Below, in pieces: positions 1 to 19,834 of a stretch of 36,173 bases of DNA. Both the position numbers and the translations under genes were made by a program. This DNA comes from a virus. Each line of letters begins with the position of its first letter. Position 1 is the first letter of the stretch. The stretch covers positions 1-36,173 of the IMG/VR virus record IMGVR_UViG_3300015199_000009; one strand, 5' to 3'. The notes under the pieces are model-generated. The model was not told where the DNA came from, made no database searches, and worked only from the letters and a program-made list of their open reading frames with translations.

Positions 1-25
1 GTGAAACCAGCGCTTGGCCGTGGTC

Positions 26-856: not shown

Positions 857-865
857 TTTTAGAAT

Positions 866-894: not shown

Positions 895-920
895 TATTAC
901 GAAATTTCGAAATTTAAGTG

Positions 921-3308: not shown

Positions 3309-3380
3309 CGTCCGACCTCCGCGTCGGACGAACCATTTTGCAGTATCAGGGAACGTCCGAGGCGGAGCTCGGACGCTACC
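3304..3380. repeat. BIME-like inverted pair of REP elements, E1
   Basis: The left half (3304-3330) begins G-GTAG and folds as CGTCCGAC, loop CTCCGC, GTCGGACG. The right half (3354-3380) is an inverted variant that ends CTACC and pairs CGTCCGAG with CTCGGACG. Both stems are intact although their sequences differ. A GTAG head followed by a palindrome is the signature of REP elements mobilised by RAYT transposases. The transposase stop codon is the TAG of the GTAG head. Confidence 0.8.
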
Positions 3381-3394
3381 GGGAGGAGGGAAAC

Positions 3395-4105
3395 ATGCAG
3401 ACCGTCGTACAGGATCCCGTGCCCATCGTGGCGCGGGCAGAGGCGGAATCTCCGCTGGAGAAAACCGCGCACTCGATCGGGCAGCTCTACAAGCGCGCGC
3501 TCACGGCCAGGCATGCGGCGAATACAGCCGGGATGTCAATCGGCATGCTGGTGATCGATTTGGCGCGCACCGAGTTTATCGCCAAAAAGCTGATCGCGCA
3601 CAACACGCGCGAGGAAAAATCGGCGGGTGGCACTGCGACCCGCGCGCACAATTTCGTTTGCGCGGAACTGGCCAAAAGCGGCAGCTACAACGCCGACTAT
3701 CTGCAGGCTTGCGCGCGCCAATATCTGTACGCGTACAACGCGCAACAGACACAGACACGCGGCGCCGTGGCCACCTTCGACACCAAAACTGGCGTGCTGA
3801 CATGCGATGCCTACGAAGTCCTGCCCGTGATCAATCCAGTGCAGCCCAAATCACCCATCATTGACGAAACGTTTGCCGATCCAAACATACAGCAGTCAAC
3901 AGGCGCGGTGGAAGTCGCGCACATGGACGCGTTCCAATTAGTCAGCCAGCACGGCGATTCGTATCTGCGCCGCATCGGCCTGGCCGATGGCCAGCTAAAC
4001 CCGCCCGCCGTCAAAGCGCTGGCCAAATATTTCAGCCCGATATTCGCCGCGCATAAACTGTCAATCGTCACAGTAAAATCCAACCCCAAGGGAGACACAA
4101 TATGA
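3395..4105 (+). CDS. Unknown early protein between transposase and MuB-position gene
   Basis: This 236-residue protein starts at ATG 3395 after a very strong GGGAGGAGG site just past element E1. An earlier in-frame ATG lies inside the repeat and is rejected. The N-terminal half is helical (LYKRALTARHAANTAGMSIG). A middle region has many Tyr/Ala/Gln residues (NADYLQACARQYLYAYNAQQ). The C-terminus ends in a short beta-rich tail. No catalytic motif or known family is recognised. Its stop overlaps the next start by four bases (ATGA), so the two are likely co-translated. Its place between transposase and B gene suggests a role in early transposition or regulation, which is only inferred. Confidence 0.8.
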   Translation: MQTVVQDPVPIVARAEAESPLEKTAHSIGQLYKRALTARHAANTAGMSIGMLVIDLARTEFIAKKLIAHNTREEKSAGGTATRAHNFVCAELAKSGSYNADYLQACARQYLYAYNAQQTQTRGAVATFDTKTGVLTCDAYEVLPVINPVQPKSPIIDETFADPNIQQSTGAVEVAHMDAFQLVSQHGDSYLRRIGLADGQLNPPAVKALAKYFSPIFAAHKLSIVTVKSNPKGDTI

Positions 4106-4719
4106 GCCTGAAATTCGATTCCCGCCAGCGCGCCATGATCGCGCTGTGCAGCGAACGCGGCACACCCGGCCGCGCGCAGATCGACGTGGTTAAGCAGTCT
4201 CAAAATTTTTGCGGGGTTAGCGCCGCAATCAGCGAGGCAGTGCGCAAGAGCCCGTCCATCATCCACGTGCATGCGGGCGGGGGCGCCTACAGCGCCATCA
4301 GCGAGGCGTGCCGTCGCAACGGTGTCACGGGCATGGGCTACGTCGGGCGCCTGGCCAAGCTGGCTGAATCGCAGCACGAAGGCCAGGGCATGACCCTGGT
4401 CTTCGATCACGCGGGCGCGGTCCTGCCCGCCACGATGCTGACGATCCAGCGCTGCGCGCAGGCCGCCGCCGCCAGCGGCGAGATTTCGATCCGCGTGATA
4501 TTCGTGGTCACCATGATCGACCGCTGGGACAAAAAAACAAAGTCTTACATGGCACAGATGCCGGCCGGCAGCGAGCTGCTCCGGCCCCATTGCCGCGTCT
4601 ACGACTACGGCCAAAAGCGCCTCGAAAAATCGCGCGACGCACAGCAGCCCGCGCTGCTGAGTGATGAATCAGCCAATCTGTTCGAACACCAGCCGGCGGC
4701 CAGCGTGGCAGCAGGATAA
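4102..4719 (+). CDS. MuB-position AAA-like protein without a Walker A motif
   Basis: The 205-residue product occupies the place of MuB, the ATPase that binds target DNA and activates MuA. It has an order reminiscent of AAA/TniB-type ATPases: a short N-terminal helical part, a strand SIIHVHAGGGAYSA at about 52-65 where the P-loop should be, then MTLVFDHAG at 97-105 resembling Walker B, then IRVIFVV, which resembles the sensor strand. The expected GxxGxGKT lysine is absent. It may be a degenerate MuB that no longer binds ATP, or an unrelated protein. The start has AAGGGAG seven bases upstream and overlaps the preceding stop. Confidence 0.45.
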   Translation: MSLKFDSRQRAMIALCSERGTPGRAQIDVVKQSQNFCGVSAAISEAVRKSPSIIHVHAGGGAYSAISEACRRNGVTGMGYVGRLAKLAESQHEGQGMTLVFDHAGAVLPATMLTIQRCAQAAAASGEISIRVIFVVTMIDRWDKKTKSYMAQMPAGSELLRPHCRVYDYGQKRLEKSRDAQQPALLSDESANLFEHQPAASVAAG

Positions 4720-4724
4720 ACGGC

Positions 4725-4843
4725 GAGAAGTGAGGATGGAGGAGTGAGGAGAGAGAACGGCCCGCGCCCGAGCGTATTCCCCCCCAGCGTTCTGGCGACT
4801 CCACGGGCACCGCTCGTTTCTCACTTCTCCATCCTCACTTCTC
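4725..4843. repeat. Purine-rich long inverted repeat, GAGAAGTGAG family
   Basis: The arm at 4725-4760 (GAGAAGTGAGGATGGAG...) is inverted at about 4811-4843 (...CTCCATCCTCACTTCTC), with a roughly 50-base GC-rich loop. Related elements occur at 9381, 9771, 14603, 20441, 26039, 26489 and 28228. Immediately downstream, CCCGCCC at 4851-4857 pairs with GGGCGGG at 4869-4875, followed by an A-run. There is no gene in 4720-4899. Confidence 0.7.
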
Positions 4844-4899
4844 AAACACACCCGCCCCGCAATTTCGTGGGCGGGGAAAAATAAACAGGAGGAAAAACG

Positions 4900-5424
4900 A
4901 TGTCGAACACAGCACTCAACGAAATAGAGGCAGACCTCAACGCGCACGAAATTATGGCGGCGCGCCTACGCCGTGTCAGGGCGAAAATGAAACGAGATCA
5001 GCAGGCCATCGACGCCGTAAAAACAGACATCGCGCCGCAGGTCCATTATCTCAAATCGGTCCCGGAATGTTTTGGGCCCATGAGCGACGGCGTGAAAACG
5101 TGCGACATGCGCCACAACACCGACCGCGAATTCCGGGTCGGGGATTACATCGTATTCCGTGAGTACAAGGCGAAACAAAAAATATTCACCGGCGCAAACA
5201 TACATCGCCGCATCACACACATCGAAGAATTGATCTGCGACGTCAGGGATCGAGACAACGGAAAACCCTTAGTCGTACCCATGCAATTCATGGCGCTCTC
5301 CATCCGCCGGCTGTGTGCGGGCGAAAAAATTAGCATCGACTTACCGCCCGAACCCTATCACCGAGCCGACGTAAAAATCACAGATGAGGGCCTGCGAGCC
5401 ATGTCCGGAGGCTGCCTCGGATGA
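4900..5424 (+). CDS. DUF3850-like (PUA/ASCH fold) early protein
   Basis: The 174-residue protein has a charged helical N-terminus (residues 1-45), then a segment matching the DUF3850 pattern: HYLKSVPECF, then KTCDMRHNTDREFRVGDYIV, then FREY, FTG and RITHIEEL (about 48-112). DUF3850 belongs to the PUA-like group, whose members are thought to bind RNA or modified nucleic acid; no activity is established. The C-terminal 50 residues are unassigned. The start has AGGAGG seven bases upstream. It begins a compact cluster of small genes and overlaps the next start by four bases. Confidence 0.75.
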   Translation: MSNTALNEIEADLNAHEIMAARLRRVRAKMKRDQQAIDAVKTDIAPQVHYLKSVPECFGPMSDGVKTCDMRHNTDREFRVGDYIVFREYKAKQKIFTGANIHRRITHIEELICDVRDRDNGKPLVVPMQFMALSIRRLCAGEKISIDLPPEPYHRADVKITDEGLRAMSGGCLG

Positions 5425-5636
5425 ACGCCCGGTACGATCCGCCCATGGAAACGCGCAGCCCGTTGCTGCGCGTGCATCACCTGATCCGATCGCAACGCCG
5501 CACACTGAAACCCCACGAGCGCGAGGCCGTTACCACCTGCGCGCTGCGCTGCGAACGCGCCAGGGCGCGAGGATTTAACGTGTCGCTGTCTCCGTACCTG
5601 AGACAGCTAATGAGAATACAGGAACAGGGGGAATAA
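5421..5636 (+). CDS. Small basic protein, unknown
   Basis: The 71-residue product is strongly basic (many Arg) and helical (SPLLRVHHLIRSQRRTLKPHEREAV, given here in outline). It may bind nucleic acid, but no family is recognised. The ATG overlaps the upstream stop (ATGA), and a GGAGG site lies ten bases before it inside the upstream gene, so translation is probably coupled. The next gene starts two bases after its stop. Confidence 0.65.
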   Translation: MNARYDPPMETRSPLLRVHHLIRSQRRTLKPHEREAVTTCALRCERARARGFNVSLSPYLRQLMRIQEQGE

Positions 5637-5638
5637 AC

Positions 5639-5809
5639 ATGCAGATCGTTGACGACGACATCGCGCAACTCCACGACACGCGCGATGAATTCGACGAACC
5701 CACGGACGCGGAATTTCGGGGCGCTGCCCTGGCCGGGGCCGTGGCGATACTGGTGCTCAGCGGGATCTCACTGCTCTGTTTGTGGGTGCTGATCGAACTG
5801 TGCATCTAG
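5639..5809 (+). CDS. Small single-span membrane protein
   Basis: This 56-residue frame has an acidic N-terminus (MQIVDDDIAQLHDTRDEFDE) and one clear membrane segment near the C-terminus (AVAILVLSGISLLCLWVLI). A G-rich site precedes the ATG, and the gene sits tightly between two others. Single-span phage peptides of this size act as holins, exclusion factors or membrane anchors, but no specific role can be assigned. The early position argues against a lysis role. Confidence 0.6.
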   Translation: MQIVDDDIAQLHDTRDEFDEPTDAEFRGAALAGAVAILVLSGISLLCLWVLIELCI

Positions 5810-5833
5810 AAACGAAACACAGGAGACAGAGAA

Positions 5834-6274
5834 ATGAAAACGGACACACAAAAACAACAGGGCATCGCGGCGCGGCTGGAACAACTGGTGCCGATGCGCG
5901 TCGAAATGCTGCGGCAGGCCGAGCTGTTGAAAATACAACTGAAACAGAATCACGACGAAACTGTGGCGCTGATGAAATTGGACAACCGGGAGCAATTCTT
6001 GAGCGCAAACGGCTCGCGCGCAATCCTCTCGATCAAAAATCGGTGGACGTGGCTGCTCGAGGGTCTGCAAAAACAACTCTCGAAAAACCTGTTTGAAAAA
6101 TTCTGTCCGCGCACGCCGAGCGCCGCGAAATTGCGCGCATATTACGAGGACGATCCGCAGCTCATGAGGGGCCTGAAATCGGTCTGCAAACAGACCCCCT
6201 ACGACAACCTGGAGACACGCGCACCGGGCGCGGGGGTGAGCGCCGACGCCGACGCCGACGACATCGCGGCATAA
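5834..6274 (+). CDS. Early coiled-coil protein, unknown
   Basis: The 146-residue product starts eight bases after AGGAG. Residues 5-60 form a probable coiled coil (ARLEQLVPMRVEMLRQAELL). A middle segment contains NRWTWLLEGLQKQLSKNLFE, and the C-terminus is an acidic Ala/Asp tail (SADADADDIAA). No known family is recognised. Its place in the early cluster is where Mu-like phages keep small accessory or nuclease-inhibitor genes, but no specific similarity is visible. Confidence 0.7.
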   Translation: MKTDTQKQQGIAARLEQLVPMRVEMLRQAELLKIQLKQNHDETVALMKLDNREQFLSANGSRAILSIKNRWTWLLEGLQKQLSKNLFEKFCPRTPSAAKLRAYYEDDPQLMRGLKSVCKQTPYDNLETRAPGAGVSADADADDIAA

Positions 6275-6326
6275 AAAAAATCGGGGGGCGGGCGCCCCGC
6301 CCCACACCCAGCGGAAAAACGATACC

Positions 6327-6533
6327 ATGACGACAAAAACAGCCCGAAAAATCATCAGCGATATGCGCGACGAATTGGCATCGCGCATCAAACAGCATCG
6401 CGCCTATCGGGACGATTGCATTTTTCGCAGTCCGGAGAACGAGGAAGATGCGCGAAAATATTGCCGAACACAATGCCGTGGCGCACAACGCCGCATCGAC
6501 GCGCTGGAATTCCTGATGGACGCGCCATTCTGA
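6327..6533 (+). CDS. Small charged helical protein, unknown
   Basis: The 68-residue product is helical and basic (ARKIISDMRDELASRIKQHR) and contains two cysteines in RKYCRTQCRG. The ribosome site is weak. A GC hairpin (about 6283-6302) lies upstream in the short gap after the preceding gene. No family is recognised. Confidence 0.6.
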   Translation: MTTKTARKIISDMRDELASRIKQHRAYRDDCIFRSPENEEDARKYCRTQCRGAQRRIDALEFLMDAPF

Positions 6534-6535
6534 TC

Positions 6536-6654
6536 GGTAGCGTCCAGGCTCTGCCCTGGACGTTCCGTTGCACAATTTCGCCCGGCGCGGAGGCCGGGCG
6601 CTACCTTGGAGTTGCACAATTTCGCCCGGCGCGGAGGCCGGGCGCTACCTTGGA
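6536..6654. repeat. REP element E2 with a 44-bp tandem duplication
   Basis: The left REP half (6536-6562) has the stem GTCCAGG/CCTGGAC with loop CTCTG, a compensated variant of the other copies. A 44-bp unit (6567-6610) is repeated exactly at 6611-6654. Each unit carries an inverted REP half (CGCCCGGC...GCCGGGCG, ending CTACC) and the TTGGA of a ribosome site. The second unit places GGAG five bases before ATG 6661. Confidence 0.8.
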
Positions 6655-6660
6655 GATACA

Positions 6661-6984
6661 ATGTACCCAGACCCCTACAGCGTCACCGAAAAACAGCGAA
6701 CTGAGGTGCGACATAGCGGTGCAGGCGACACTGTCACGCTGGGCGGCGCGACCGCCCAGGTCGTACCCGTGCGCGACGTGCCGATTTTGATCAGGATCGT
6801 TCGCGACGATTTGATGGACGGGTTCGACGCCAAACGCCACTCGGAATTGCTCGCCGCCGAGCGCCGCCCGGGATTTCCCGGCCCGGACAACGCGGCCGAG
6901 ATCGCGCGCGGCCAGGAAACAATCCGAAAAATCGCCGCGCTGAATTATGTGCTGGACTGCGCGGCAATGGCGGAGCTCATCTAG
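6661..6984 (+). CDS. Early protein, unknown
   Basis: The 107-residue product starts at ATG 6661 next to the duplicated ribosome site; the in-frame upstream extension lies in the repeat and is rejected. The N-terminal half looks beta-rich (GDTVTLGGATAQVVPVRDVP). A helical C-terminal half follows (AAEIARGQETIRKIAALNYV). No family is recognised. The next gene starts after a one-base gap. Confidence 0.6.
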   Translation: MYPDPYSVTEKQRTEVRHSGAGDTVTLGGATAQVVPVRDVPILIRIVRDDLMDGFDAKRHSELLAAERRPGFPGPDNAAEIARGQETIRKIAALNYVLDCAAMAELI

Positions 6985-6985
6985 C

Positions 6986-7438
6986 ATGGATAAAAATCAG
7001 CGCAAACACCAGATGATGGCCATCCACGCCACCTATCGCCGCATGTGGGTCGAGGGCGTTGTCGCCAATCTGCACACAGACGCGCACACCTCCGCCGAGT
7101 TATGGGCATCCCAGGTTCTAGGACGCCTGATCTCGACATTGACGGCCTGCGCCGATTGCGAGCTCAACGTGCTGCGCGATGCGCTCAATGGCAAACCGTC
7201 CAAGGTCCACGGCCGGCTGCGCGATGTGCTGTCGCGCACGAAAAAGAATCCAGACGCCTGGGTCGATTGGATGATGCATCACGCCCCCGCGTACAAACGC
7301 TATGCGGTGGACGGCACGAAATACACGGTCGAGACGATCCCGTGGGTCGAAGCGTGGCGGCTATTGAAGACGGTGGAACCGCGCGATCCGCAATACCGCA
7401 AACAGGACTGGGTACCGTTGCACGGAAGGCCACACTAA
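6986..7438 (+). CDS. Early/middle regulator candidate, unknown
   Basis: The 150-residue product begins at ATG 6986, with CGGAG ten bases upstream inside the preceding gene. It is mainly helical and contains CADCELNVLRDALNGKPSKV and a Trp-rich segment (DAWVDWMMHHAPAY). Its position at the end of the early cluster is where Mu-like phages keep GemA/Mor-type regulators, but I see no convincing family motif. Its stop overlaps the following start by one base. Confidence 0.65.
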   Translation: MDKNQRKHQMMAIHATYRRMWVEGVVANLHTDAHTSAELWASQVLGRLISTLTACADCELNVLRDALNGKPSKVHGRLRDVLSRTKKNPDAWVDWMMHHAPAYKRYAVDGTKYTVETIPWVEAWRLLKTVEPRDPQYRKQDWVPLHGRPH

Positions 7439-7725
7439 TGACCACGCCCGCACAACGACTTTCCGAAATCCTAAAAACTTTCGGCTCGGTCTCCAGCCTT
7501 CAACGCGTCCTGCATGTGCGCGCGCAATTAGTGGTGAATTGGCGCAACGCCAAATCCTTTCCACAGCGCAAACACATGCTCAGGCTCATGTGGCTGTTCA
7601 TGGACCGTGCAGCCGAAATCGAATTGCTCTTTGCCGCGCATTACGCGCGCAGAACAAAACGCTCTCGCCACGTCCGCGCCGAACACCCAGCGCATGGGCG
7701 AGAATATCACCCTGTTTTGTGTTAA
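7438..7725 (+). CDS. Helix-turn-helix protein, likely regulator
   Basis: The 95-residue protein contains a Cro/XRE-like helix-turn-helix at about residues 17-45 (SSLQRVLHVRAQLVVNWRNA). A second helical segment follows (LRLMWLFMDRAAEIELLFAA) and then a basic tail. It follows the upstream gene with a one-base overlap. It probably binds DNA and could control the switch to late genes; this is inferred from fold and position only. The repeat at 7726-7820 begins right after its stop. Confidence 0.55.
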   Translation: MTTPAQRLSEILKTFGSVSSLQRVLHVRAQLVVNWRNAKSFPQRKHMLRLMWLFMDRAAEIELLFAAHYARRTKRSRHVRAEHPAHGREYHPVLC

Positions 7726-7820
7726 TCAGGTTCAGGTTCGCGATCGTCTAGGTCTGGGTCATTTTCTTGGTCAGGTTCGTGGTCAGGTTCAGGTTTTGGT
7801 ATAGGGTCGCGATCGGGGTA
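7726..7820. repeat. GGTTCAGGTTC low-complexity repeat with two CGCGATCG sites
   Basis: Variants of GGTTCAGG, GGTCAGGTTC and GGTCTGGGTC recur through the gap, and CGCGATCG appears at 7739-7746 and 7808-7815. The element separates the regulator gene from the methyltransferase gene and ends at its start region. A coding frame on the minus strand (Asp/Pro/Glu repeats) is a shadow of the repeat. Confidence 0.6.
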
Positions 7821-7826
7821 ATGACG

Positions 7827-8951
7827 ATGAAACTCCGATACGGTTCTATCTGTTCTGGAATAGAAGCGGCCACTGTAGCATGGAAGCCGCTTGGCTGGAC
7901 GGCGCAATTCTTCGCCGAGATTGAATCGTTCCCCTCTGCGGTCCTGGCTCATTATTATCCGAGGATAAAAAATCTTGGCGACTTTACAAAAATCGGAATC
8001 GAGCGAGCAGGAACAATTGATGTTCTTGTGGGCGGAACCCCGTGTCAATCTTTCAGCCTTGCAGGCCAGCGAGGCGGCTTGGATGATGCGCGCGGTAACT
8101 TGGCGATTGAGTTTGTGGCGCTGGCTGAGCGACTGCGATGTAAATGGGTGGTATGGGAGAACGTGCCCGGTGTCTTGTCGAGTAACGAAGGACGGGATTT
8201 TGGAACCTTCATCGGGCGGCTGGCAAAATGCGGGTATGGGTGGGCCTATCGAATCCTGGACGCTCAATACTTCGGAGTTCCACAGCGCCGCCGTCGCGTG
8301 TTCGTTGTCGGATATCTTGGAGACTGGCGACGTGCAGCCGCAGTATTATTTGAGCGCGCTAGTCTGCAGTGGAATTCTCCGCCGTGCCAAAAAGAAAGGA
8401 GAAAAATTGCCTGTACAATTAGAAGCGTCACTGGAAGCAATAGCTGCGGCGGCCCTGAAGAAAATTTGATTGTTCGAAGTCTGACTTCGAGCAATCAACG
8501 CCTAGATTATGAGACTGATAATCTCCTCGTGGCTAAGACAATAAGTGCAAACCCTTCTAAAGACGGATTTCAAACGCAATTAGTTACGCACGCCTTGCGC
8601 GGCGAAGGATTCGACGCAAGCGAAGATGGAACCGGGCGCGGAACTACGCTGATTGCTTCGCCATCGAGCACTAAAGCGTATGCGGATAATGCTAGTCAAG
8701 AATCGAAGCTCACGGTAACTCAAAACTCAGTTCGTCGCCTAACACCGATGGAATGCGAGCGTCTTCAAGGATTTCCAGACAATTACACCGCAATCCCGTA
8801 TCGCGGAAAACCCGCTGCCAATTCGCCACGATACAAGGCAATTGGAAATTCAATGGCGGTGCCGTGTATGATTTTCATCGGGCAAAGAATTCAGATGGTG
8901 GAGGACTGCATCAATGGTAATCGAAAATCAAGCATACTGCCACAAATGTAA
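7827..8951 (+). CDS. DNA (cytosine-5) methyltransferase, cargo gene
   Basis: The 374-residue protein has the ordered motifs of C5 methyltransferases: SAM-binding YGSICSGIEAA at the N-terminus, the catalytic Cys73 in VGGTPCQSFS, WENVPGV at 110-116, RRRRVFVVG, and C-terminal RRLTPMECERLQGFP and YKAIGNSMAVP. It would methylate cytosine in DNA, possibly protecting the phage from host restriction; the target site is unknown. ATG 7827 is chosen because GGGG lies about eight bases upstream; ATG 7821 is possible. The codons are visibly more AT-rich than in neighbouring genes, and it is bounded by repeat-filled gaps, which suggests recent acquisition. Confidence 0.93.
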   Translation: MKLRYGSICSGIEAATVAWKPLGWTAQFFAEIESFPSAVLAHYYPRIKNLGDFTKIGIERAGTIDVLVGGTPCQSFSLAGQRGGLDDARGNLAIEFVALAERLRCKWVVWENVPGVLSSNEGRDFGTFIGRLAKCGYGWAYRILDAQYFGVPQRRRRVFVVGYLGDWRRAAAVLFERASLQWNSPPCQKERRKIACTIRSVTGSNSCGGPEENLIVRSLTSSNQRLDYETDNLLVAKTISANPSKDGFQTQLVTHALRGEGFDASEDGTGRGTTLIASPSSTKAYADNASQESKLTVTQNSVRRLTPMECERLQGFPDNYTAIPYRGKPAANSPRYKAIGNSMAVPCMIFIGQRIQMVEDCINGNRKSSILPQM

Positions 8952-9103
8952 ACACTTTCAGCCCATGCGCTGCCTGGTGCCACGGCCGGCTGAAAAATTG
9001 CCGGGCGCGTGAAAATGGATTGGACTTGACCTTTCTGGGTCGCCTTGCTACCGTGTGCGCGTCTAAGTCGCTGCACCGAATGGCGGGTTGTTTTAACGTA
9101 ACA

Positions 9104-9174
9104 ACTTTCGTGGTTATCAAATTCGGGTCCGCGCCGATGAAGTTACGAGCAGTTACAATGTTAACCACGAAAGT
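9104..9174. repeat. Inverted repeat ACTTTCGTGGTTA
   Basis: Perfect 13-base arms at 9104-9116 and 9162-9174 flank a 45-base centre. The element lies in the gap that splits the Cys-rich gene and belongs to none of the other palindrome families in the window. Confidence 0.6.
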
Positions 9175-9200
9175 ATATAAAAAGCATAAGGGATGAGTCA

Positions 9201-9218
9201 GAAACCTCGGACAACCCC
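9201..9218. repeat. Half copy of the ETSDNP hairpin (copy 3)
   Basis: Bases 9201-9218 are identical to 1635-1652, the loop and right arm of the hairpin in the transposase region, followed by a run of five T. The left arm is missing. Confidence 0.55.
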
Positions 9219-9362
9219 AGTTTTTACAAAATAGGATTGCCAGCACGAACAACGCCTGGGGCGAATGCACCCAGGACGGCTGTGTCTGCGCAAAGTTCGA
9301 TCTGACCCAAAACCGTAGCAATTGCCGATACAAGCGTATAACTCATTAGGAGGGACACGCGT

Positions 9363-9764
9363 ATCAAAACGGCCACAAAAGAGAAACGAGAAAAGAGAAT
9401 CGAGAACGGCTCGCTTCTCACGCCTCCATCCGCGCGGCTGTCAGACGACGAAAAGGGCCTGCTCTGCCTGCGCTACGCCAGGGTCGCAGCCGCGCACTAC
9501 GGCCGCCGCCTGAAATCCGAGGCGCGCGCCGAACTCGCCGATGCCATACTGCCAGGCCTGTGGCGCCGCGCATCGCGCTGGACACCCGGACCCAAAACAT
9601 TCGCCCAATTTGCCCAACAGGCCGCGCACCAGGCCGCCAAGGACCATCTGCGCCATCTGCGCTCGTCTTCAGACGTGCTGGACGCCCGCCGCGCCACGGA
9701 ACTTGAGGATGAACAAGCCAGGCTGGCGGACGCCGAAGCGCCCGAAAGCGAGGAAAGAGGATAG
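9363..9764 (+). CDS. Sigma-region-2-like protein with no standard start codon
   Basis: A frame open from 9342 to 9764 contains a segment resembling region 2 of sigma factors: LRYARVAAAHYGRRL, then LADAILPGLWRRASRWTPG, KTFAQFAQQAAHQAAKDHLR. Region 2 binds core RNA polymerase and the -10 box. Region 4 is absent, so the 133-residue protein may be a partial sigma or an anti-sigma-like regulator of late genes. No ATG, GTG or TTG occurs in the first 70 codons. A strong AGGAGGG at 9348-9354 lies eight bases before ATC 9363, the start used here. The N-terminus (KEKREKRIENGSLL) is encoded by a GAGAAG-family repeat, so an insertion may have destroyed the original start. Confidence 0.5.
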   Translation: MKTATKEKREKRIENGSLLTPPSARLSDDEKGLLCLRYARVAAAHYGRRLKSEARAELADAILPGLWRRASRWTPGPKTFAQFAQQAAHQAAKDHLRHLRSSSDVLDARRATELEDEQARLADAEAPESEERG

Positions 9765-9770
9765 AGAAAA

Positions 9771-9815
9771 CAGAAGTGAGCAAACTCGTTTCTCACTCCT
9801 CTTTTCTCACTTCTG
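9771..9815. repeat. GAGAAGTGAG-family inverted repeat
   Basis: CAGAAGTGAG at 9771-9780 is perfectly inverted at 9806-9815, with further purine/pyrimidine arms around it. It ends six bases before ATG 9821, leaving no Shine-Dalgarno. Confidence 0.65.
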
Positions 9816-9820
9816 TCTAT

Positions 9821-10243
9821 ATGTATGACGCTGGCCAAAAACGACTGATCGCACGCGAACTCGCCCGCCATGGTGGCATCGTGGAACGCGCCGTCGCCGC
9901 GTTACAAACGCAGTACGAATCCATGGACCGCATCGGTGCGACCACGATCCGCCGCTTGATGCGCGATTGCCGCTTCAAGGCGTTGATGCGCGAACAGGAA
10001 CTATTATTGAACGCCGCGCAGGCCCAGGGCGACGCCGACGCCGAAACCAAAAAGGCCGAGACAGAATCTCTGGGCAAATCCGACCTGGTGCGAATCTTAA
10101 AGGCGGCCATCAACAAAGCCGCGGTGACAATCGAATCTGGAGACATGAAGCCCATGGCTTCAATGCTCGTGGCTATTCAGACTCTGGAAAAAATAAATGG
10201 CCCGTCCGGTGGCAATAAACAATTCAGTATCGACAGCGACTAA
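9821..10243 (+). CDS. Small terminase subunit candidate
   Basis: This 140-residue helical protein directly precedes and overlaps the large terminase gene, the usual place of the small subunit that recognises packaging DNA. Its N-terminal 60 residues could hold an HTH-like fold (GGIVERAVAALQTQYESMDR, then ATTIRRLMRDC). A helical middle (MREQELLLNAAQAQGDADAE) could oligomerise. I chose ATG 9821 because the earlier GTG at 9776 lies inside the repeat. No Shine-Dalgarno precedes it. Assignment rests mainly on position. Confidence 0.55.
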   Translation: MYDAGQKRLIARELARHGGIVERAVAALQTQYESMDRIGATTIRRLMRDCRFKALMREQELLLNAAQAQGDADAETKKAETESLGKSDLVRILKAAINKAAVTIESGDMKPMASMLVAIQTLEKINGPSGGNKQFSIDSD

Positions 10244-11699
10244 ACTGACTGCCGATGAATGCCGGAAACTCGCGGCCCAATGCGCGGCGCCAGGCGGCTT
10301 CGTGTTGTTTTGCAACCGCTTCGTGCGTGTCGAGGACGCCGTCACACACCAGACCGTGCCGTTCAACCTTTGGCCCTGCCAGGTGCAGATCGCACAGCAG
10401 TTGGAACGCGGCGAATGGCTGGCGATTCTGAAAGCGCGGCGACTGGGCATGACCTGGCTGTTGGTTGCCTTTGCGCTCTGGCTGGTGCTATTCCGCAAGC
10501 ACGCCACCGTCGTCGTGGTCAGCCAGGACAAGGAATATGCCGCGGACTTCCTGGACCGCTGCCGCTTCGTGCTGGATCAACTCCCTGATTTTTTACGGCG
10601 CACGGCCACGCGAGACAGCCGCCTGCGCCTCGAATTCAACAAGAACCTGCACGGTTCGATGATCCGCTCCGTGGCCTGCACCAAACGCGCCATCCGGTCA
10701 CTGAGTGCCAACCTCATAATTTTCGACGAAGCGGCGTACATGGATTTGCTCAAAACCGCGCGCCTCGCCGCGCAGCCGGCCGTCGAAACCAACGGGGGGC
10801 AGATCGTCATATGCAGCACTTCCAGCGGACCCTCCGGCGATTTCTACGCGCTGTTTCTGGCGTCATCCACCACGAAGACGCGCTACACCCCCGTATTTTT
10901 CGACTGGCGCGCCAGGCCGGGCCGAGACGCGGCTTGGTACTCCCGCGAATCCCAAGAGAACCTCGCCGATCCGCTGTACATGAAACGCGAATACCCCGCC
11001 ACGCCCGAGGAAGCCTTCGAGTCTGCCGAGGGCAGAATCTATCAACTTTTCAGCGCGCATGGCGAGAGCAGCCAGAAATTCATCCGCAAAATAGAACTGC
11101 ACCGCGACTGGCCGCTCTACCGCGGCATCGACTTCGGCGGCGTGGATCCGTTCGTATGCCTGTGGGGCGCCGTGATCCCGGGCGACGGCCCGGCGCTGAC
11201 CATCGACCCGCATTGCGCCAACCTGATCCGCGAAATGCTGGCGTATCATTACGACTCATCCGGACGCCCGGCTGACGTGGACAACCACGCCTGCGACGCG
11301 CTGCGCTACCTGGTGATTACGCCTGCTCCTAACGGCATACAGGGGCATCTGCACATCTGGCAGGAACTGTACGTGCCCAACTCGGCCGCGCTGGGGTTGT
11401 CGCTGCCGGATCTGGCCAGGCGTATAACTACTATGAGTGGCAACTCGAACCACAATTATAAATGCTCCGTCGCTGACCGCTCCCGCCCTGATAGCGTTGC
11501 GCTTCTCGCCCAGATGGGAATCCCTGCTATCGGGCAACGCAGCCTGTCTGGCGGTCACGGCGGGGAAATCGTTCAGGGTATCGCGCGCGTCAACGCCTTG
11601 ATCGTCGGCAGCGCCAAAGGCAAGGCGGCCGTGTCATGGCCAGTGCAGAAATATGTGGGTCTTCCCGCGCAGATGAAACGCCGCGGCATTTTTGGGTAG
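10197..11699 (+). CDS. Large terminase subunit with permuted nuclease motifs
   Basis: The 500-residue protein is the packaging motor. The ATPase half has a Walker A-like LKARRLGMT (about 78-86), Walker B LIIFDEAA (173-180) and a coupling motif ICSTSS (205-210). The RuvC-like nuclease half begins with YRGIDFGGVDPF (Asp312). In the usual order a central Asp segment comes next and a final block with HPRC...DHALDALRY comes last. Here the final block (DPHCANLIREML, then VDNHACDALRYLV, Asp367) directly follows the first strand, and the central segment (HLHIWQELYV, VADRSRPDS with Asp427, GIARVNALI) comes after it. The gene overlaps the previous one by 47 bases. Its stop is the TAG of a REP head. Confidence 0.92.
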   Translation: MARPVAINNSVSTATKLTADECRKLAAQCAAPGGFVLFCNRFVRVEDAVTHQTVPFNLWPCQVQIAQQLERGEWLAILKARRLGMTWLLVAFALWLVLFRKHATVVVVSQDKEYAADFLDRCRFVLDQLPDFLRRTATRDSRLRLEFNKNLHGSMIRSVACTKRAIRSLSANLIIFDEAAYMDLLKTARLAAQPAVETNGGQIVICSTSSGPSGDFYALFLASSTTKTRYTPVFFDWRARPGRDAAWYSRESQENLADPLYMKREYPATPEEAFESAEGRIYQLFSAHGESSQKFIRKIELHRDWPLYRGIDFGGVDPFVCLWGAVIPGDGPALTIDPHCANLIREMLAYHYDSSGRPADVDNHACDALRYLVITPAPNGIQGHLHIWQELYVPNSAALGLSLPDLARRITTMSGNSNHNYKCSVADRSRPDSVALLAQMGIPAIGQRSLSGGHGGEIVQGIARVNALIVGSAKGKAAVSWPVQKYVGLPAQMKRRGIFG

Positions 11700-11934
11700 C
11701 GTCCGGCCTCCGCGTCGGACGCACGTCCGGCCTCCGCGTCGGACGCACGTCCGGCCTCCGCGTCGGACGCACGTCCGGCCTCCGCGTCGGACGCACATCC
11801 GGCCTCCGCGTCGGACGCACATCCGGCCTCCGCGTCGGACGCACATCCGGCCTCCGCGTCGGACGCACATCCGGCCCCGAACGTTCGCACGCAACCGGCA
11901 TTATGTTCGTCCGACGCGGAGGTCGGACGCTACC
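11695..11934. repeat. REP/BIME element E3 with seven-unit 24-bp tandem array
   Basis: The element opens with GGTAGC (11695) and closes with GCTACC (11934). From 11700 to 11867 there are seven full 24-bp units, each a hairpin (CGTCCGGC, loop CTCCGC, GTCGGACG, then CA), four beginning CG and three CA, and then a partial unit. A spacer with ACGCAACCGGCA and one inverted unit follow. Elements E4 and E5 share the spacer. The TAG of the opening GTAG is the terminase stop codon, and AGGA just after the end serves the portal gene. Open frames through the array are artefacts of the 24-bp period. Confidence 0.9.
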
Positions 11935-11943
11935 AGGAACAAA

Positions 11944-13584
11944 ATGAACGAACAGGACTTAGCCGAATCTTTACTGGCTCGCAGCGCCGAACTCGAACCG
12001 CTCGTCAGCGAAAATAAGATCGTTGACGACGTGCTGGACGGGCGCACGGCCATCATCACGCGCACCAGCCGCAAGGCTGATCAGCGCGCGCCGGGGATCG
12101 TCAATTCACCCATCCCGGTCAATCCCAATCAGGCCAGCGTGGACGGCAGTAGTTACAACGTGGGCGGGCCCGAATCGCGTTACCTGCCAAAGCACCAGAT
12201 GGAATCGAATACCGAATATCAAAAACGTTTGGATATGACGCCCTTCGTCCCCGAGATGCCCGGCATCCTGCAATCGCGCCAGGGCGCGCTCTTTCGCAAG
12301 CCACCCGATATCGATCTGCCCGATGCCCTGCAGCCGCTGTTGTCACGCGCCACATGTGGAGGCGCCAGCCTCCAGGACCTGATCGTCAACGTGGCGGCCG
12401 CCTGCCAGATCGGTGGATTCGCGGGTGTGCATATCGACCGCGAACGCCTGCCCGACGACGTGGATCCGGACAACACATCGCTGGCCACCGTGCAGCAGCG
12501 CGGACTCGGCCGCATCGTCTTCGCCCCGTACGCCGCACATCAGATCCGTGGATACGGCAGTGACAATTACGGATTGTCCTGGGTCAAGACCGTCGAATGC
12601 GTGGCTCAGGCGGCCACCTGGGACGAAAAACCACGCGAGACCTATACGGTGCGCGTGATCGACCGCCAGGCCGTCAATGTCTGGACGGTAGTCAAGAAAC
12701 GCAAATCAGGGCGCTGGTCGGTCACGGGCCCGCAAACTTTCGCGCACGGTGCCCAGAACGTGAACGGCACCCCCGTTGTGCCCTTCAGGCTGTTTCATCC
12801 CTTCCCCGCGCGCGATGGCGTGGGCCGCAGTAACCTGCGCGCCAGCGCCGAGGCCGACGTGGCCGCCACGCGCATGCTCTCCGATCTGCTCTTTTTGCTG
12901 CACATGCTGGCTCCGATCCTGACACTGACCACGAATCGCGACGACAAGGAAATCGCGGACATCGGACTGGGATCCAGCTACCTCAACATTCTCCAAGGCA
13001 AGGTGGGAGATCGCGACGAAGAAAAATTAGCCTTCACGCAACTCGACCCGATTGCCGTGGACCGCCTGCTGACGATGTACGAAAAACTCTGCAACAAGGC
13101 CCGCGAAAACGCGAACAAGAGCACCGATGTGGGCGTGTCTGGGCCCGTGCAACAAAGCGGCATCTCGAAGGCGTGGACGTTCAAAACTGGCGAGGAACGC
13201 GTGTTGTTCTTGCTGGCGAATGTCTGCCTTCAAGAGGGGTTTCAATGGTGCCTCGATCTGGCCGCCAGAATGTCCGGCGCGGGCGAATCGAAGGCATCGA
13301 TCAAATTCCCCGAATCGTACGATATCACGGGCCTGCCCGAACAACTGGCCATCGCCAATCAAGCCATGCCGATCCTGGCCGAATACGACATGCGCACCGC
13401 GATCGTACACCTGATGAAGCGCCTCGCCCGGCATGTCATGGGCAACGCCAGCGACACAGACGTGGCCGCCAGCGACGCGCAAGCCGATGCGCTGATCAAC
13501 CGCGATTTACGGCCCAGCGCGCCCCTCGTTGCACCGCAGACTGTCAGCGAGCGAGTGCCGGTCACGGAGTCTGACAACGTTTAA
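11944..13584 (+). CDS. Portal protein (DUF4055/SPP1-type)
   Basis: The 546-residue protein follows the large terminase and precedes scaffold and capsid genes, as portals do. It has the portal-like order: YLPKHQMESNTEYQKRLDMT (about 79-98), a segment with GILQSRQGALFRKPPDI, a GGFAGVHIDRE strand, APYAAHQIRGYG, then a long helical stem and crown (ADVAATRMLSDLLFLLHMLA). It would form the ring through which DNA enters the head. ATG 11944 follows AGGA; the longer in-frame start in the tandem array is rejected. Array elements flank the gene on both sides. Confidence 0.82.
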   Translation: MNEQDLAESLLARSAELEPLVSENKIVDDVLDGRTAIITRTSRKADQRAPGIVNSPIPVNPNQASVDGSSYNVGGPESRYLPKHQMESNTEYQKRLDMTPFVPEMPGILQSRQGALFRKPPDIDLPDALQPLLSRATCGGASLQDLIVNVAAACQIGGFAGVHIDRERLPDDVDPDNTSLATVQQRGLGRIVFAPYAAHQIRGYGSDNYGLSWVKTVECVAQAATWDEKPRETYTVRVIDRQAVNVWTVVKKRKSGRWSVTGPQTFAHGAQNVNGTPVVPFRLFHPFPARDGVGRSNLRASAEADVAATRMLSDLLFLLHMLAPILTLTTNRDDKEIADIGLGSSYLNILQGKVGDRDEEKLAFTQLDPIAVDRLLTMYEKLCNKARENANKSTDVGVSGPVQQSGISKAWTFKTGEERVLFLLANVCLQEGFQWCLDLAARMSGAGESKASIKFPESYDITGLPEQLAIANQAMPILAEYDMRTAIVHLMKRLARHVMGNASDTDVAASDAQADALINRDLRPSAPLVAPQTVSERVPVTESDNV

Positions 13585-13799
13585 GGTAGCGTCCGGCCTC
13601 CGCGTCGGACGCACATCCGGCCTCCGCGTCGGACGCACATCCGGCCTCCGCGTCGGACGCACATCCGGCCTCCGCGTCGGACGCACATCCGGCCTCCGCG
13701 TCGGACGCACATCCGGCCTCCGCGTCGGACGCACATCGCCCCGGAATGTTCGCACGCAACCGGCATTACATTCGTCCGACGCGGAGGTCGGACGCTACC
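13585..13799. repeat. REP/BIME element E4 with six-unit 24-bp tandem array
   Basis: GGTAGC at 13585-13590 directly follows the portal stop. Six 24-bp hairpin units fill 13590-13733, almost all beginning CATCCGG. The shared spacer (GTTCGCACGCAACCGGCATT) and one inverted unit ending CTACC follow. The order is the same as in E3, so the portal gene lies between two long homologous elements. Confidence 0.9.
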
Positions 13800-13817
13800 A
13801 CTTAGGAGCACACATCA

Positions 13818-14555
13818 ATGAATTTTCGCCTCATGGGCATGGCCTTCCAGATCTGTTTAACCGCGGGCGTGGCCGAAGGCGCGGCCGGCGTGGTAGTCAC
13901 CGAACCGGCGAAAACAGAACCCTCCAAGGCCGAGGTCAAGGCGGCGCGCCGCGCCGAACGCGATCGCGTCCACCAAACCCTTGTCGCCACCGTCTCGCAG
14001 TTGCAAGCCCACGTGATCGAACTGCAAAAACCAAAAATCGAAGTCAAACAGACCGAGACCGAAAAACAATCCGTGCAAGCGCAGCTTGACGCGCTGCGCG
14101 GCGAGATCGACAAGCGCGACAAGCTGATCGCGCAGGAAAAACGCCACAACGCCGTGCGCGCCGCCGCCAGTTCCATCCCGTGGTTCAACCCCGACGACGC
14201 GATCCGCGAGCTGCTCCCGTTGACGCAGGAACGCGACGGGCGTCTATATATCCCCACGACAGAACGCGTGGGCACTGTGGACGTGTCTAAAGAGCTTTCG
14301 ATTGATGACGCCGTCAAGGGCCTCGCCAAATCCAAGCCCTACCTGGTCAAGGCCACCGTCCAATCCGGCAGCGGCGCCAGCGGCGGAAACTCAACCGGCA
14401 GCGCAGGCACGTCCCTGAAAACCGAAATCACAAAATGGAGCCAGGTCAAAGAGAACCCCGTGCTATTGGCCAGACTCCAAGCTGAGGATCCGCAATACGC
14501 CGAAGCGTTGCAGCAAAAATACATCGCAAAACAGAGAAAAAAATTAGGACAGTAA
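13818..14555 (+). CDS. Capsid scaffolding protein candidate
   Basis: The 245-residue protein lies between portal and major capsid genes, the standard scaffold position. Residues about 35-115 form a long charged coiled coil (EVKAARRAERDRVHQTLVAT, then QSVQAQLDALRGEIDKRDKL). The middle contains IPWFNPDDAIRELLPL and VDVSKELSIDDAVKGLAKSK. The Gly/Ser linker and basic C-terminal helix (QKYIAKQRKKLGQ) fit a capsid-binding tail. A TAGGAG site precedes ATG 13818. The function is inferred from position and composition. Confidence 0.7.
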   Translation: MNFRLMGMAFQICLTAGVAEGAAGVVVTEPAKTEPSKAEVKAARRAERDRVHQTLVATVSQLQAHVIELQKPKIEVKQTETEKQSVQAQLDALRGEIDKRDKLIAQEKRHNAVRAAASSIPWFNPDDAIRELLPLTQERDGRLYIPTTERVGTVDVSKELSIDDAVKGLAKSKPYLVKATVQSGSGASGGNSTGSAGTSLKTEITKWSQVKENPVLLARLQAEDPQYAEALQQKYIAKQRKKLGQ

Positions 14556-14602
14556 GCGCCGCGCGTATAACTACATTGTAGACCGATCATATTGATTTCC
14601 GA

Positions 14603-14639
14603 AGCCGTACTCGTTTCTCATTTCTCCATCCTCGTTCCT
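14603..14639. repeat. Half GAGAAGTGAG-family element (pyrimidine arm)
   Basis: The gap before the capsid gene has a CTCGTTTCTCATTTCTCCAT-type arm without its purine partner. It ends at the CGGAG ribosome site of the next gene. The remaining 14556-14602 shows no gene. Confidence 0.5.
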
Positions 14640-14652
14640 CGGAGTGCCCGCC

Positions 14653-15696
14653 ATGCTAGTCACAATGCCAACCGATTTTTTCCTGCCGCAGCTCGCGTTG
14701 CAGTACACGCGGCAGGCGTTTAACGATTCAATCCAGTTGATGCAGCGCCTGGTGGGCTCGGGCCCTAACAGCCCGGTGCAGCTCCTCAACGATCCTACCA
14801 TGGAGGTCTCGCAATATCTGCAGCAACCGCGTTTCGCACGCATGGGGCTGGGCTTGATCTCGGTGCGCGACATCACCAGCAACGCTGCCTCAACCGTGCA
14901 GAAGCTGACGGCCGTGAACGACCAGGGTGTTAAGTTGCACCGCAAGGTCGGTCCCGTCGAATGGACCTACGACGCGGCGCGGCTGGCCGGACTGGGTAAC
15001 GACGACAATACACGCGCGGCACTGATCAGCGCCGAATACGGCCGTCAAGTGGGCGAGTACATGGCGCTGCACATTCAGCGCAGCGTGATCTCCGCATTGA
15101 TGGGCATGGTCGGCGGCATGACCGCGACTGCGCACACAGTCTCACCCTATTCCGCAAGTGCACGCACCAATCTCTCACCCGCCGTGCTCAACAGCGGCCT
15201 GAACCTGATGGCCGATGCACGCGACCTGATCACCTCGTTGGTGATGCGCAGCGAATCGTTGCAGGACCTGTACAACGATGCCATCGGACGAAGCTATCCC
15301 AACGTGGGCGATCAGGCCCTGGCCGGCAACACGGACACGAACTGCCTGGGCAAGATCAAGGCCATGGTGGACGATCCCGCTTTGACCGCCGTGGGCGCGC
15401 CGTTCAGTAAGTATTTCACGCTGGGTCTCGGCGCGCAGTGCATGCAGGTCTATGCCACGCTGCCCTTCACCACGTACATCCCCTACGTCGCCACGGACCG
15501 CGAAACGGTCACTGTGCGTTTGCGCGGCGATTTCGACATCGAATTGGCTCCCCGCGGGTTACAATGGAACAGCGGCTCCGGCGGCGCGAACCCCAGCGAC
15601 GCCAATCTCGCCACGGGCGGCAACTGGACCCCCACGTACACCAGCCACAAAGAAGTCAAAATAATCCAGATCGTGCACAACTATTCCGGCAACTAA
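14653..15696 (+). CDS. Major capsid protein
   Basis: The 347-residue protein follows the scaffold gene and has the length and composition of HK97-fold capsid proteins. It has a helical N-terminus (FLPQLALQYTRQAFNDSIQL), a beta segment with VRDITSNAASTVQKLTAVND, a segment KVGPVEWTYDAARLAGLGND, and a domain with ALIDAR-like helix MADARDLITSLVMRSESLQD. It ends with beta strands (TVTVRLRGDFDIELAPRGLQ). The start is ATG 14653, eight bases after GGAG; the GTG at 14644 is less likely. No catalytic residues are expected. The assignment rests on gene order and general pattern. Confidence 0.78.
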   Translation: MLVTMPTDFFLPQLALQYTRQAFNDSIQLMQRLVGSGPNSPVQLLNDPTMEVSQYLQQPRFARMGLGLISVRDITSNAASTVQKLTAVNDQGVKLHRKVGPVEWTYDAARLAGLGNDDNTRAALISAEYGRQVGEYMALHIQRSVISALMGMVGGMTATAHTVSPYSASARTNLSPAVLNSGLNLMADARDLITSLVMRSESLQDLYNDAIGRSYPNVGDQALAGNTDTNCLGKIKAMVDDPALTAVGAPFSKYFTLGLGAQCMQVYATLPFTTYIPYVATDRETVTVRLRGDFDIELAPRGLQWNSGSGGANPSDANLATGGNWTPTYTSHKEVKIIQIVHNYSGN

Positions 15697-15697
15697 C

Positions 15698-15791
15698 GGT
15701 AGCGCCCGGCCTCCGCGCCGGGCGAACATCGGCCCCAATGTTCGAACGCAACCGGCAATATGTGCGTCCGACGCGGAGGTCGGACGCTACC
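15698..15791. repeat. REP/BIME element E5
   Basis: The left half (from 15698) is a compensated variant with stem CGCCCGGC/GCCGGGCG around the same CTCCGC loop. The spacer shares ACGCAACCGGCA with E3 and E4. The right half is CGTCCGAC...GTCGGACG ending CTACC at 15791. There is no tandem expansion here. Confidence 0.85.
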
Positions 15792-15804
15792 AACGGAACA
15801 AAAC

Positions 15805-16398
15805 ATGCCTCTTGAACACGACTGCAAATTTCACGATCGCGACGGCAAGGTTTATCCCGCCGCGATCGAACACCTGACAAACCCAGCCGATTACACGGAT
15901 GGGCCGCGCGTCTATTGTGTCCCCGAACACGATCAATACGGGAAACCGGTGCTGACGCAGGTTCTCTTCCGCGAGTCGGGCCAGGATGGCGCCACATTCC
16001 ATCTGGCCGCCGATCCGGACAGCGCGGCCACGCGCTGGCAAACTGGGCGCGGTGGAATCGACACCGATAAATTAGACCCGCGTGGCGGGCATTGGTACCG
16101 CTGCCTGCTGATCCGCCCGCAAGCCGGGTTCAACGAAGTGGGCAGCCAGCCGGCCGCGACAGAGGCCAGCCTTCCCAAGATCCCCATCGTTGACCTGAGC
16201 GTCGATTTTTCCAGCCCACACGGCAAACCCCGCGTCAACCACGTCGGCAACGTCAGGCATATCGGCGACGTGGCATCGGGCCCAGGCATGTCCCGCATCC
16301 CACACTACGTTCCCAACGTTCCCATTCCGCCCATTCTTCCCATAGACTCGCCCAAAAGCGCGCCAGCGACAAAATCCACAAAAACCGACCCAAAGTAG
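15805..16398 (+). CDS. Virion accessory protein, unknown
   Basis: The 197-residue product starts at ATG 15805 after CGGAA; the earlier in-frame ATG lies in the repeat. The N-terminal 110 residues look like a compact domain (HDCKFHDRDGKVYPAAIEHL, then YCVPEHDQYGKPV, GHWYRCLLIRPQAGFNEV). The C-terminal third is Pro-rich and probably extended (VPNVPIPPILPIDSPK). It lies just after the capsid gene, so a head decoration or completion role is possible. No family is recognised. Confidence 0.65.
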   Translation: MPLEHDCKFHDRDGKVYPAAIEHLTNPADYTDGPRVYCVPEHDQYGKPVLTQVLFRESGQDGATFHLAADPDSAATRWQTGRGGIDTDKLDPRGGHWYRCLLIRPQAGFNEVGSQPAATEASLPKIPIVDLSVDFSSPHGKPRVNHVGNVRHIGDVASGPGMSRIPHYVPNVPIPPILPIDSPKSAPATKSTKTDPK

Positions 16399-16417
16399 CA
16401 ATCTACCCATTTCAGCA

Positions 16418-16522
16418 ATGCAGAAACGCCCCCAGCGCCGTTTTTGCCCTTCCGGCGCGGTGCAATTCAACCCAAACGGCAATCTTTTCACACAAGCCCA
16501 AAATAGGACGCGAAAAATATGA
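16418..16522 (+). CDS. Possible tiny protein ahead of the decoration-like gene
   Basis: A 34-residue frame (MQKRPQRRFCPSGAVQFNPN, ending QAQNRTRKI) has its stop overlapping the next start as ATGA, a pattern of coupled genes. There is no ribosome site, so it may be fortuitous. Otherwise 16399-16518 shows no feature. Confidence 0.25.
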   Translation: MQKRPQRRFCPSGAVQFNPNGNLFTQAQNRTRKI

Positions 16523-17082
16523 GCGGCGCGGTAATCGAATCGGCAGAATTGTTCACAGGCCAAAAATTATTCAACGATGGTCTGGCGATTAAGGCCGGCC
16601 AGCAAATCATCGAAGGCGCCGCAATCCAAAGCCTGAACGTTTCGGCCGCCCTGGGCGGCAACGGCAACGGCAACCGCCTAGTCAAACAGATCGTGGGCAT
16701 GGCCGATGCCGCCGACGTGCTGTTGTTCACGATCACGATCCCGAACGCGCTCAGCGCTGCCGGGATCCGCGTCTGTCTCACCGGCATGTTGGGCGACGGC
16801 GATAGTGCCGAAACCAGTTTGTACGATCTAGCCATCAGCCGCATCGCGGGCGCAAACGCGCTCTGCGTGGCCAGCGCCAAAAACGCAATCGCCGCAACCG
16901 TGGGCGTGGCCGGAAATTGCGTGTCGATTCTCACCGTCCCCGCCGTGGCTGGCGCCATCGGCGCGTCCAACACATTCGCCGTGACCGCCCGCGTTACGCG
17001 CAGCGCCGGCGCCTCGACCAACCACAAAATCACCGCGATCGTCGAGCTGCTCAGCCAAATCGGCGGCATCACAATCAGTTAG
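16519..17082 (+). CDS. Head decoration or structural protein candidate
   Basis: The 187-residue protein is rich in Ala, Gly, Ile, Thr and Val with a beta-strand pattern (VSAALGGNGNGNRL, DVLLFTITIPNALSAAGIRV, ITAIVELLSQIGGITIS). It has no signal peptide and few charges, as in many virion surface proteins. It lies after the capsid gene in the head module. AGGA precedes ATG 16519. No catalytic motif or family is recognised. Confidence 0.6.
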   Translation: MSGAVIESAELFTGQKLFNDGLAIKAGQQIIEGAAIQSLNVSAALGGNGNGNRLVKQIVGMADAADVLLFTITIPNALSAAGIRVCLTGMLGDGDSAETSLYDLAISRIAGANALCVASAKNAIAATVGVAGNCVSILTVPAVAGAIGASNTFAVTARVTRSAGASTNHKITAIVELLSQIGGITIS

Positions 17083-17083
17083 C

Positions 17084-17172
17084 GGTAGCGTCCGACCTCC
17101 GTGTCGGACGTTCGGGTTATGCCGGCGCATTGCCAGCCGGATGTGCGTCCGACACGGAGGTCGGACGCTACC
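17084..17172. repeat. REP/BIME element E6
   Basis: GGTAGCG begins at 17084 and the inverted partner ends CTACC at 17172. The stem is CGTCCGAC/GTCGGACG with loop CTCCGT on the left. The spacer differs from that of E3-E5 (TTCGGGTTATGCCGGCGCAT). AGGAAG just after it serves the next gene. Confidence 0.85.
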
Positions 17173-17185
17173 ATAGGAAGAACAC

Positions 17186-17473
17186 ATGCCATCCCAGGCA
17201 AACATATTCGGCCCCGCTGGCGGCGAATTCATCTCCGACGCCACCCCGCAAACCGTGACACTCAACGTGCCAGGCGGCAGCGTGCTTAACAACGGCGCCG
17301 TGCAATCATTCCTGAATCTCGACAACGGCGCAGTCGTCACGACCGAGGGCAACAACCCCAGCGTCGTGCCATTGCCACCGGGCGCGACCAAACGATTGCC
17401 GGCGCAATGCGTGGCATTCAAACACGCAACGAACGCGGGTTCCACGTTTTTGATTTACGAGGGCAGTAACTAA
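17186..17473 (+). CDS. Small virion protein candidate, beta-rich
   Basis: The 95-residue product is beta-rich (ATPQTVTLNVPGGSVLNNGA, RLPAQCVAFKHATNAGSTFL) and contains no membrane segment. A good AGGAAG site precedes ATG 17186. It lies in the head module ahead of a fiber-like gene, so a small decoration or connector protein is likely. No family is recognised. Confidence 0.6.
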   Translation: MPSQANIFGPAGGEFISDATPQTVTLNVPGGSVLNNGAVQSFLNLDNGAVVTTEGNNPSVVPLPPGATKRLPAQCVAFKHATNAGSTFLIYEGSN

Positions 17474-17474
17474 T

Positions 17475-19517: not shown

Positions 19518-19524
19518 AAAAATC

Positions 19525-19822: not shown

Positions 19823-19834
19823 GAGGGATCTAAA

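Follow-up and report, generated by a model that had tools for sequence, protein, structure and literature searches.

A phage large terminase with a probable inherited segment transposition in its RNase H/RuvC-like nuclease domain

The stretch of DNA analysed here (the window, 36,173 nt) is a metagenome virus contig, IMG/VR virus record IMGVR_UViG_3300015199_000009, in which the gene for a large terminase subunit (TerL) lies beside those for a likely small terminase, a portal, a scaffold and a capsid protein. The corresponding features, and a recurrent short repeat found among them, are as follows.

9776..10243, + strand: likely small terminase (TerS), assigned from tblastn homologues; overlaps the TerL start
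10197..11699, + strand: large terminase (TerL), 500 aa, with a permuted nuclease domain, assigned from its translation, Terminase_6N and phrog_2
10284..11063, + strand: ATPase domain of TerL, approximately residues 30-289, with Walker B LIIFDEAA, assigned from PF03237 and T4 gp17 structures
11944..13584, + strand: portal protein (phrog_145, E 2.2e-34)
13818..14555, + strand: scaffolding protein (phrog_206, E 9.2e-10)
14644..15696, + strand: major capsid protein, Gp13-like (PF20036, E 1.4e-34)
11702-11876, 13592-13737, 6567-6655, 15764-15790 and 17145-17171: REP-like 24-bp units

The REP-like units are palindromic (GTAGCGYCCGRCCTCCGCGYCGGRCG), lie between head genes and form tandem arrays at two of their sites; the same 24-bp pattern is present in Phycisphaerae and Hydrogenedentota MAGs, and the host-like repeats beside TerL (GTAGCGYCCGRCCTCCGYGYCGGRCG) pointed to these two groups. 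Elsewhere in the window, the structural gene region encodes a matrixin-like metalloprotease (18963-19517; PF00413, E 7.7e-11) and a protease-family protein (19835-20956; phrog_9683), while the left-arm genes past the repressor (948-4719) resemble, by reading, a Mu-type transposase and its ATPase partner, and matched no Pfam or PHROG family. A C5 DNA methylase stretch (8011-8394) displays 76% DNA identity to Caulobacter phage DMCA; no other phage record is near in DNA sequence to positions 1-20000 of the window.

The identity of the TerL gene, the only one in the record, was established by matches to phrog_2 (terminase large subunit, E 6e-31) and to Terminase_6N (PF03237, E 2.4e-5, with 24.5 bits against a cut-off of 22). 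Its N-terminus forms an ASCE ATPase with Walker A and B motifs, the former in a deviant form, and that domain matches the T4 gp17 structures 3ezk and 3cpe with E-values of 1e-10 to 1e-11. The deviant Walker A (residues 79-87) reads KARRLGMTW and lacks the usual GK[ST]; forms such as KARxxGxTW and KxRxxGxST recur in other terminases of the permuted type and also in the normal-order proteins L043 and L044.

The nuclease domain that follows the ATPase is composed of three blocks, a linker and a tail.

11103..11189, + strand: block A, strands b1-b2 of the RNase H-like nuclease, residues 303-331, with Asp312 (block HMM, E 1.2e-19)
11190..11324, + strand: block C (moved), b5-helix-short hairpin-aC, IDPHCANLIREM...DNHACDALRYLV, residues 332-376 (phrog_5653, phrog_6672, phrog_10250)
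11325..11342, + strand: linker from aC to b3, residues 377-382 (alignment of permuted TerL)
11343..11609, + strand: block B, b3-aA-b4 (with Asp427)-aB-aB', residues 383-471 (block HMM, E 7.3e-38)
11610..11696, + strand: C-terminal tail, residues 472-500 (AlphaFold2 pLDDT <50)

Asp312 (11130-11132) lies within YRGIDFGGVDPFV; block C carries the motif IDPHC...NHACDALRY, with His364 at 11286-11288 and Asp367 at 11295-11297; and block B carries HLHIWQELY...SVADRSRPDSV...GIARVNALI, in which Asp427 (11475-11477) is part of SVADRSRPDSV. The translation thereby agrees, in both order and position, with the initial annotation of this DNA, which had placed Asp312 first, then a block resembling the HPRC/DALRY element of other terminases, and then the segment bearing the central aspartate. 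The order of the blocks is A-C-B, whereas the canonical order of large terminases, which the window protein lacks, is A-B-C, and the C-terminal tail sits where a canonical TerL has block C. The two junction linkers, IPGDGPA and APNGIQG, are both short, and in the alignment the aC-b3 linker is shorter in L076, L077 and L045 than in the window. The minimal move that relates the two orders is that of block C alone (45 aa), from after residue ~471 into the turn between b2 and b3, and the rearrangement is a segment transposition into that turn; a circular permutation of the RNase H fold was rejected, since b1-b2 still come first and only block C is relocated. The original reading of the domain, as two adjacent blocks exchanged inside a RuvC-like fold with its acids kept, is thus supported.

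The A-C-B order is found in 11 of 11 sequences (block HMMs and alignment), namely the window protein and ten distinct relatives: the IMG/VR contigs L076, L077, L078 and L081, one phage assembled in two samples (L113 and L114), and five Planctomycetota genomes (G031, G539, G571, G520 and G628). A search of 397 Phycisphaerae genomes yielded one 586-aa reading frame (L045 in G031), colinear over query residues 260-476, and an IMG/VR search with the alignment of this protein and that of the window then recovered L076 (51%), L077 (43%) and L078 (42%), with L081 found as well. Scores across 392 Planctomycetota genomes were bimodal, five being full-length matches with E <1e-59 and all others partial with E >1e-10. 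Four of those genomes (G539, G571, G520 and G628) belong to one order, represented by nine genomes in the searched set; their nucleases are 53-61% identical, and the copies in G520 and G628 reside on long contigs (2.0 and 2.76 Mb). No permuted TerL was found in 68 genomes of Hydrogenedentota, a group that the shared repeats had suggested, and searching phage records by DNA and by portal returned no relatives. Scans with single proteins through viral and genome contigs likewise found no close relatives of the window TerL, because the exact 8-mer patterns that they used were too strict. Microbacterium phage Shocker, colinear by tblastn over both blocks, proved to encode a protein of normal order, as did the further candidates L115 and L135.

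When each block (A, B and C) was searched as an HMM in the eleven permuted proteins and in 88 other terminase reading frames (the loci collected in this analysis, near-duplicates included), block C came last in the latter and A-C-B occurred in 0 of 88; block B, where detectable, preceded C and lay between A and C, except for one chance-level match. The alignment with related terminases proposed at the outset therefore finds the order kept in ten relatives and block C last in 88 others. A chimaeric contig, in which the assembler swapped two blocks, might be suspected for a metagenome virus contig whose TerL gene is followed, 3 bp past its end, by a 24-bp tandem array. The same order recurs, however, in ten distinct relatives, which come from several metagenomes and from five genomes, and the three junctions are without repeats, are all in frame and have linkers that are themselves alignable. 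Since relatives in independent contexts display A-C-B, misassembly is refuted and its probability is vanishingly small. The eleven proteins align end to end through both junctions, linkers included, and the A-C-B order looks like a real, inherited variant and no error of sequencing or assembly.

The assignment of the middle block as the usual C-terminal block was examined independently of its position. Block C alone matches phrog_5653 (E 3.3e-7) at profile positions 132-176 of 199, in the C-terminal part of that terminase nuclease family; it also matches phrog_6672 and phrog_10250 in their C-terminal part and, weakly, PF17288 at 110-153 of 155. The block B HMM, in turn, significantly matched normal-order terminases (L125, 2.6e-6; L089, 4.6e-6; L122, 6e-5; L135, 3e-4). 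When a profile of the permuted nuclease was compared with the solved D6E terminase 5oe8, its block B fell on residues 318-353 and its block C on 373-416; the order was swapped against SPP1 2wbn as well, with significance for the block C stretch only. These swapped matches indicate that blocks B and C are exchanged relative to solved terminases. The initial annotation had named, as a finding that would count against it, that the DALRY-like segment might not be the usual C-terminal block; instead, that segment matches the C-terminal ends of phrog and Pfam profiles, matches solved TerL past block B, and is predicted by AlphaFold2 to form the same b5-helix-hairpin-aC unit as in a normal-order control.

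It might still be argued that the middle block is a look-alike or an extra insert and that the true aC is a helix near the C-terminus, inasmuch as the model contains a 17-residue helix (residues 454-470) after block B begins closing. That helix corresponds, however, to aB' after aB in the normal-order control, and it lacks the HxxD motif, while block C matches the C-terminal blocks of nuclease families and of solved TerL. Moreover, an intein-like insert of the permuted L113 (2425-3000; also in L114) interrupts the moved block at DDHA|CDALRY, the motif position used by an intein-like insert in the normal-order L082 (VDHG|CDALRY). Such a look-alike is consequently very improbable, and the middle block is taken in what follows as the canonical C-terminal one.

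The AlphaFold2 model of window residues 276-500, computed from an alignment of seven rows, reached a pLDDT of 71.9 and a pTM of 0.74, with the core mostly at 70-90 and both ends at low confidence. The strands of block A span residues 307-312 and 319-327, and the elements of the permuted domain follow in the order b1, b2, b, helix, helix (DALRY), b3, aA, b4, aB, b and a long helix; in the normal-order control L116 (pLDDT 82.7) they run b1, b2, b3, aA, b4, aB, aB', b5, helix, hairpin and aC. As modelled, the permuted order is one of canonical elements rearranged, as b1-b2-[b5-helix-hairpin-aC]-b3-aA-b4-aB. Foldseek, an order-dependent comparison, gave TerL as the top matches of both models, with TMq against the same D6E chains of mostly 0.37-0.40 for the permuted model vs 0.69-0.72 for the control. 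The best TMq in a viral structure library was 0.41, and therefore no structure of the same order was found there.

The sheet of the RNase H fold has the order 3-2-1-4-5. One edge of it, away from the active site, is expected to hold the b2-b3 turn together with the points where b5 starts and the terminase-type aC ends. Because of that shared edge, a splice running from b5 to aC would need only two short linkers for insertion into the b2-b3 turn, which fits IPGDGPA and APNGIQG in the window; and with the b5-aC unit starting and finishing at the edge of that turn, the moved unit and the remaining segments would still pack as the ordinary 3-2-1-4-5 sheet. The terminase-type aC runs opposite to the corresponding helix of RNase H1 (PMC3985635).

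Across the eleven nucleases fifteen residues never vary, including R309, D312, G314, G315, H364, D367, R370, Y371 and D427, and both these residues and the Foldseek matches to TerL identify an RNase H/RuvC-like nuclease with candidate metal ligands of the D, D/E and D/H type. The DNHACDALRY motif corresponds to DKDNHTIDATRY of the SPP1 type. Because SPP1 uses His400 at the third place, H364 of the NHACD motif is a likelier ligand than D367 and is probably the third metal ligand; D367 would then more likely be a conserved helix residue. The three acids put forward initially (Asp312, Asp367 and Asp427) are all invariant in the 11 sequences, so that their conservation stands, while the role of third ligand probably passes from Asp367 to His364. 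By this analogy, D312, D427 and H364 would rebuild the two-metal site. Essential ligands in G20c are D294, D347 and D429 (PMC5389553).

The window carries an intact packaging module, whose gene order, terS-terL-portal-scaffold-capsid, is shared by the homologues in L159-L162, the portal neighbours there being 38-50% identical to the window portal (tblastn). The TerS candidate matched no family in Pfam and PHROG profile searches; homologues of it lie upstream of permuted TerL in L160, L161 and L162, at 37-42% identity (tblastn). Pairwise dN/dS in the nuclease is ~0.3, with dS near saturation, and together with the packaging-gene neighbours this value points to a working terminase.

In other phages the nuclease and ATPase can be separate, which lends some plausibility to a dead rearranged nuclease and to DNA cleavage by another protein. 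Against this, the metal-ligand candidates are invariant in 11 sequences, the nuclease is conserved about as much as the ATPase or more, and the window record has no second TerL; a dead nuclease is decidedly unlikely. The protein is very probably, judging from these comparisons, a working phage TerL whose RNase H/RuvC-like nuclease carries an inherited segment transposition. As with other TerL, the role of such a protein would be to cut concatemeric DNA in the course of packaging, with translocation driven as usual by the ATPase domain, and its C-terminal tail would exit where the aB/aB' region ends and not from aC. Short tails that resemble each other (IFG, PIFA, PVFG and PVFA) close several permuted TerL, at 11688-11696 in the window and at the C-termini of L093, L095 and L096, and such a tail is possibly a portal- or motor-contact peptide.

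The history of the rearrangement was addressed with a nuclease tree, for which blocks were searched separately and joined in register as alignment columns only. Against 28 normal-order nucleases, the permuted ones formed one clade (support 99/98). The ATPase domains of the same proteins fall into two lineages, a single clade being rejected (AU p 0.00017), and this non-monophyly calls for an exchange of domains or for some more complex history. Two ATPase lineages within one nuclease clade suggest that, after a single transposition, the nuclease was exchanged as a module between them. That the permutation instead arose twice, once per ATPase lineage, would accord with that rejected monophyly and with the grouping of the normal-order L002 ATPase beside the second permuted lineage; the branch of L002 is long (1.33), however, and the single nuclease clade, the shared block boundaries and a shared block-B insertion make two origins unlikely. 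L002 itself is an 842-aa reading frame (around 630-3155) encoding a normal-order terminase with a large intein-like insert. Repeats, sought as an explanation of the swap, were absent from the three block junctions of the window TerL, and the permuted proteins showed no remnant second block C of the kind that a duplication followed by deletion would be expected to leave.

Large terminases serve as universal marker genes of tailed phages, and the nuclease of this clade, which lacks a full match to the family profiles tried, would be misaligned in TerL trees. Among the papers searched, which take in few subscription journals and preprints, none was found to describe a terminase nuclease with permuted blocks, and the text of a 2014 survey of the RNase H-like superfamily (PMC3985635) contains no word beginning 'permut'. 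A broader proposal, offered tentatively and with rather less than even confidence, is that the tailed phages of Planctomycetota and others include a stable clade whose terminase nuclease may be the first example known of a segment transposition, of a non-circular kind, within the RNase H fold, that the permuted domain has travelled whole between two ATPase lineages, and that the altered exit of the tail may change coupling of the nuclease to motor or portal.

Among known systems, the T4 gp17-type ATPase (PF03237; 3cpe, 3ezk) is homologous to that of the window (E about 1e-11), which differs in its deviant P-loop and in the order of its nuclease. The SPP1 G2P/PBSX-type nuclease (2wbn, 2wc9; Terminase_3C, PF17288), whose structure 2wbn is matched by a normal-order profile with an E-value of 2.7e-21, shares the blocks and the motifs D..G.DP, AD.S.P.SI and DNH..DA.RY, in the order A (45-82), B (108-131) and C (152-199), as opposed to A, C and B in the window. 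Normal-order terminases of Planctomycetota and Hydrogenedentota (L073, L089 and L102) display near-identical motif wording, such as DWPRYRSIDFGFTNPFCCLWGAVDGDGRLWVYRELY in L073 and FADRSRPESIDWL in L089, again in the order A-B-C. The D6E large terminase (5oe8, 5oea) is the top structural match of both models, and its B and C motifs are matched; its aC comes last, ahead of a C-terminal arm extending to the ATPase site (PMC5727402), whereas the window protein has an internal aC and a tail that exits elsewhere.
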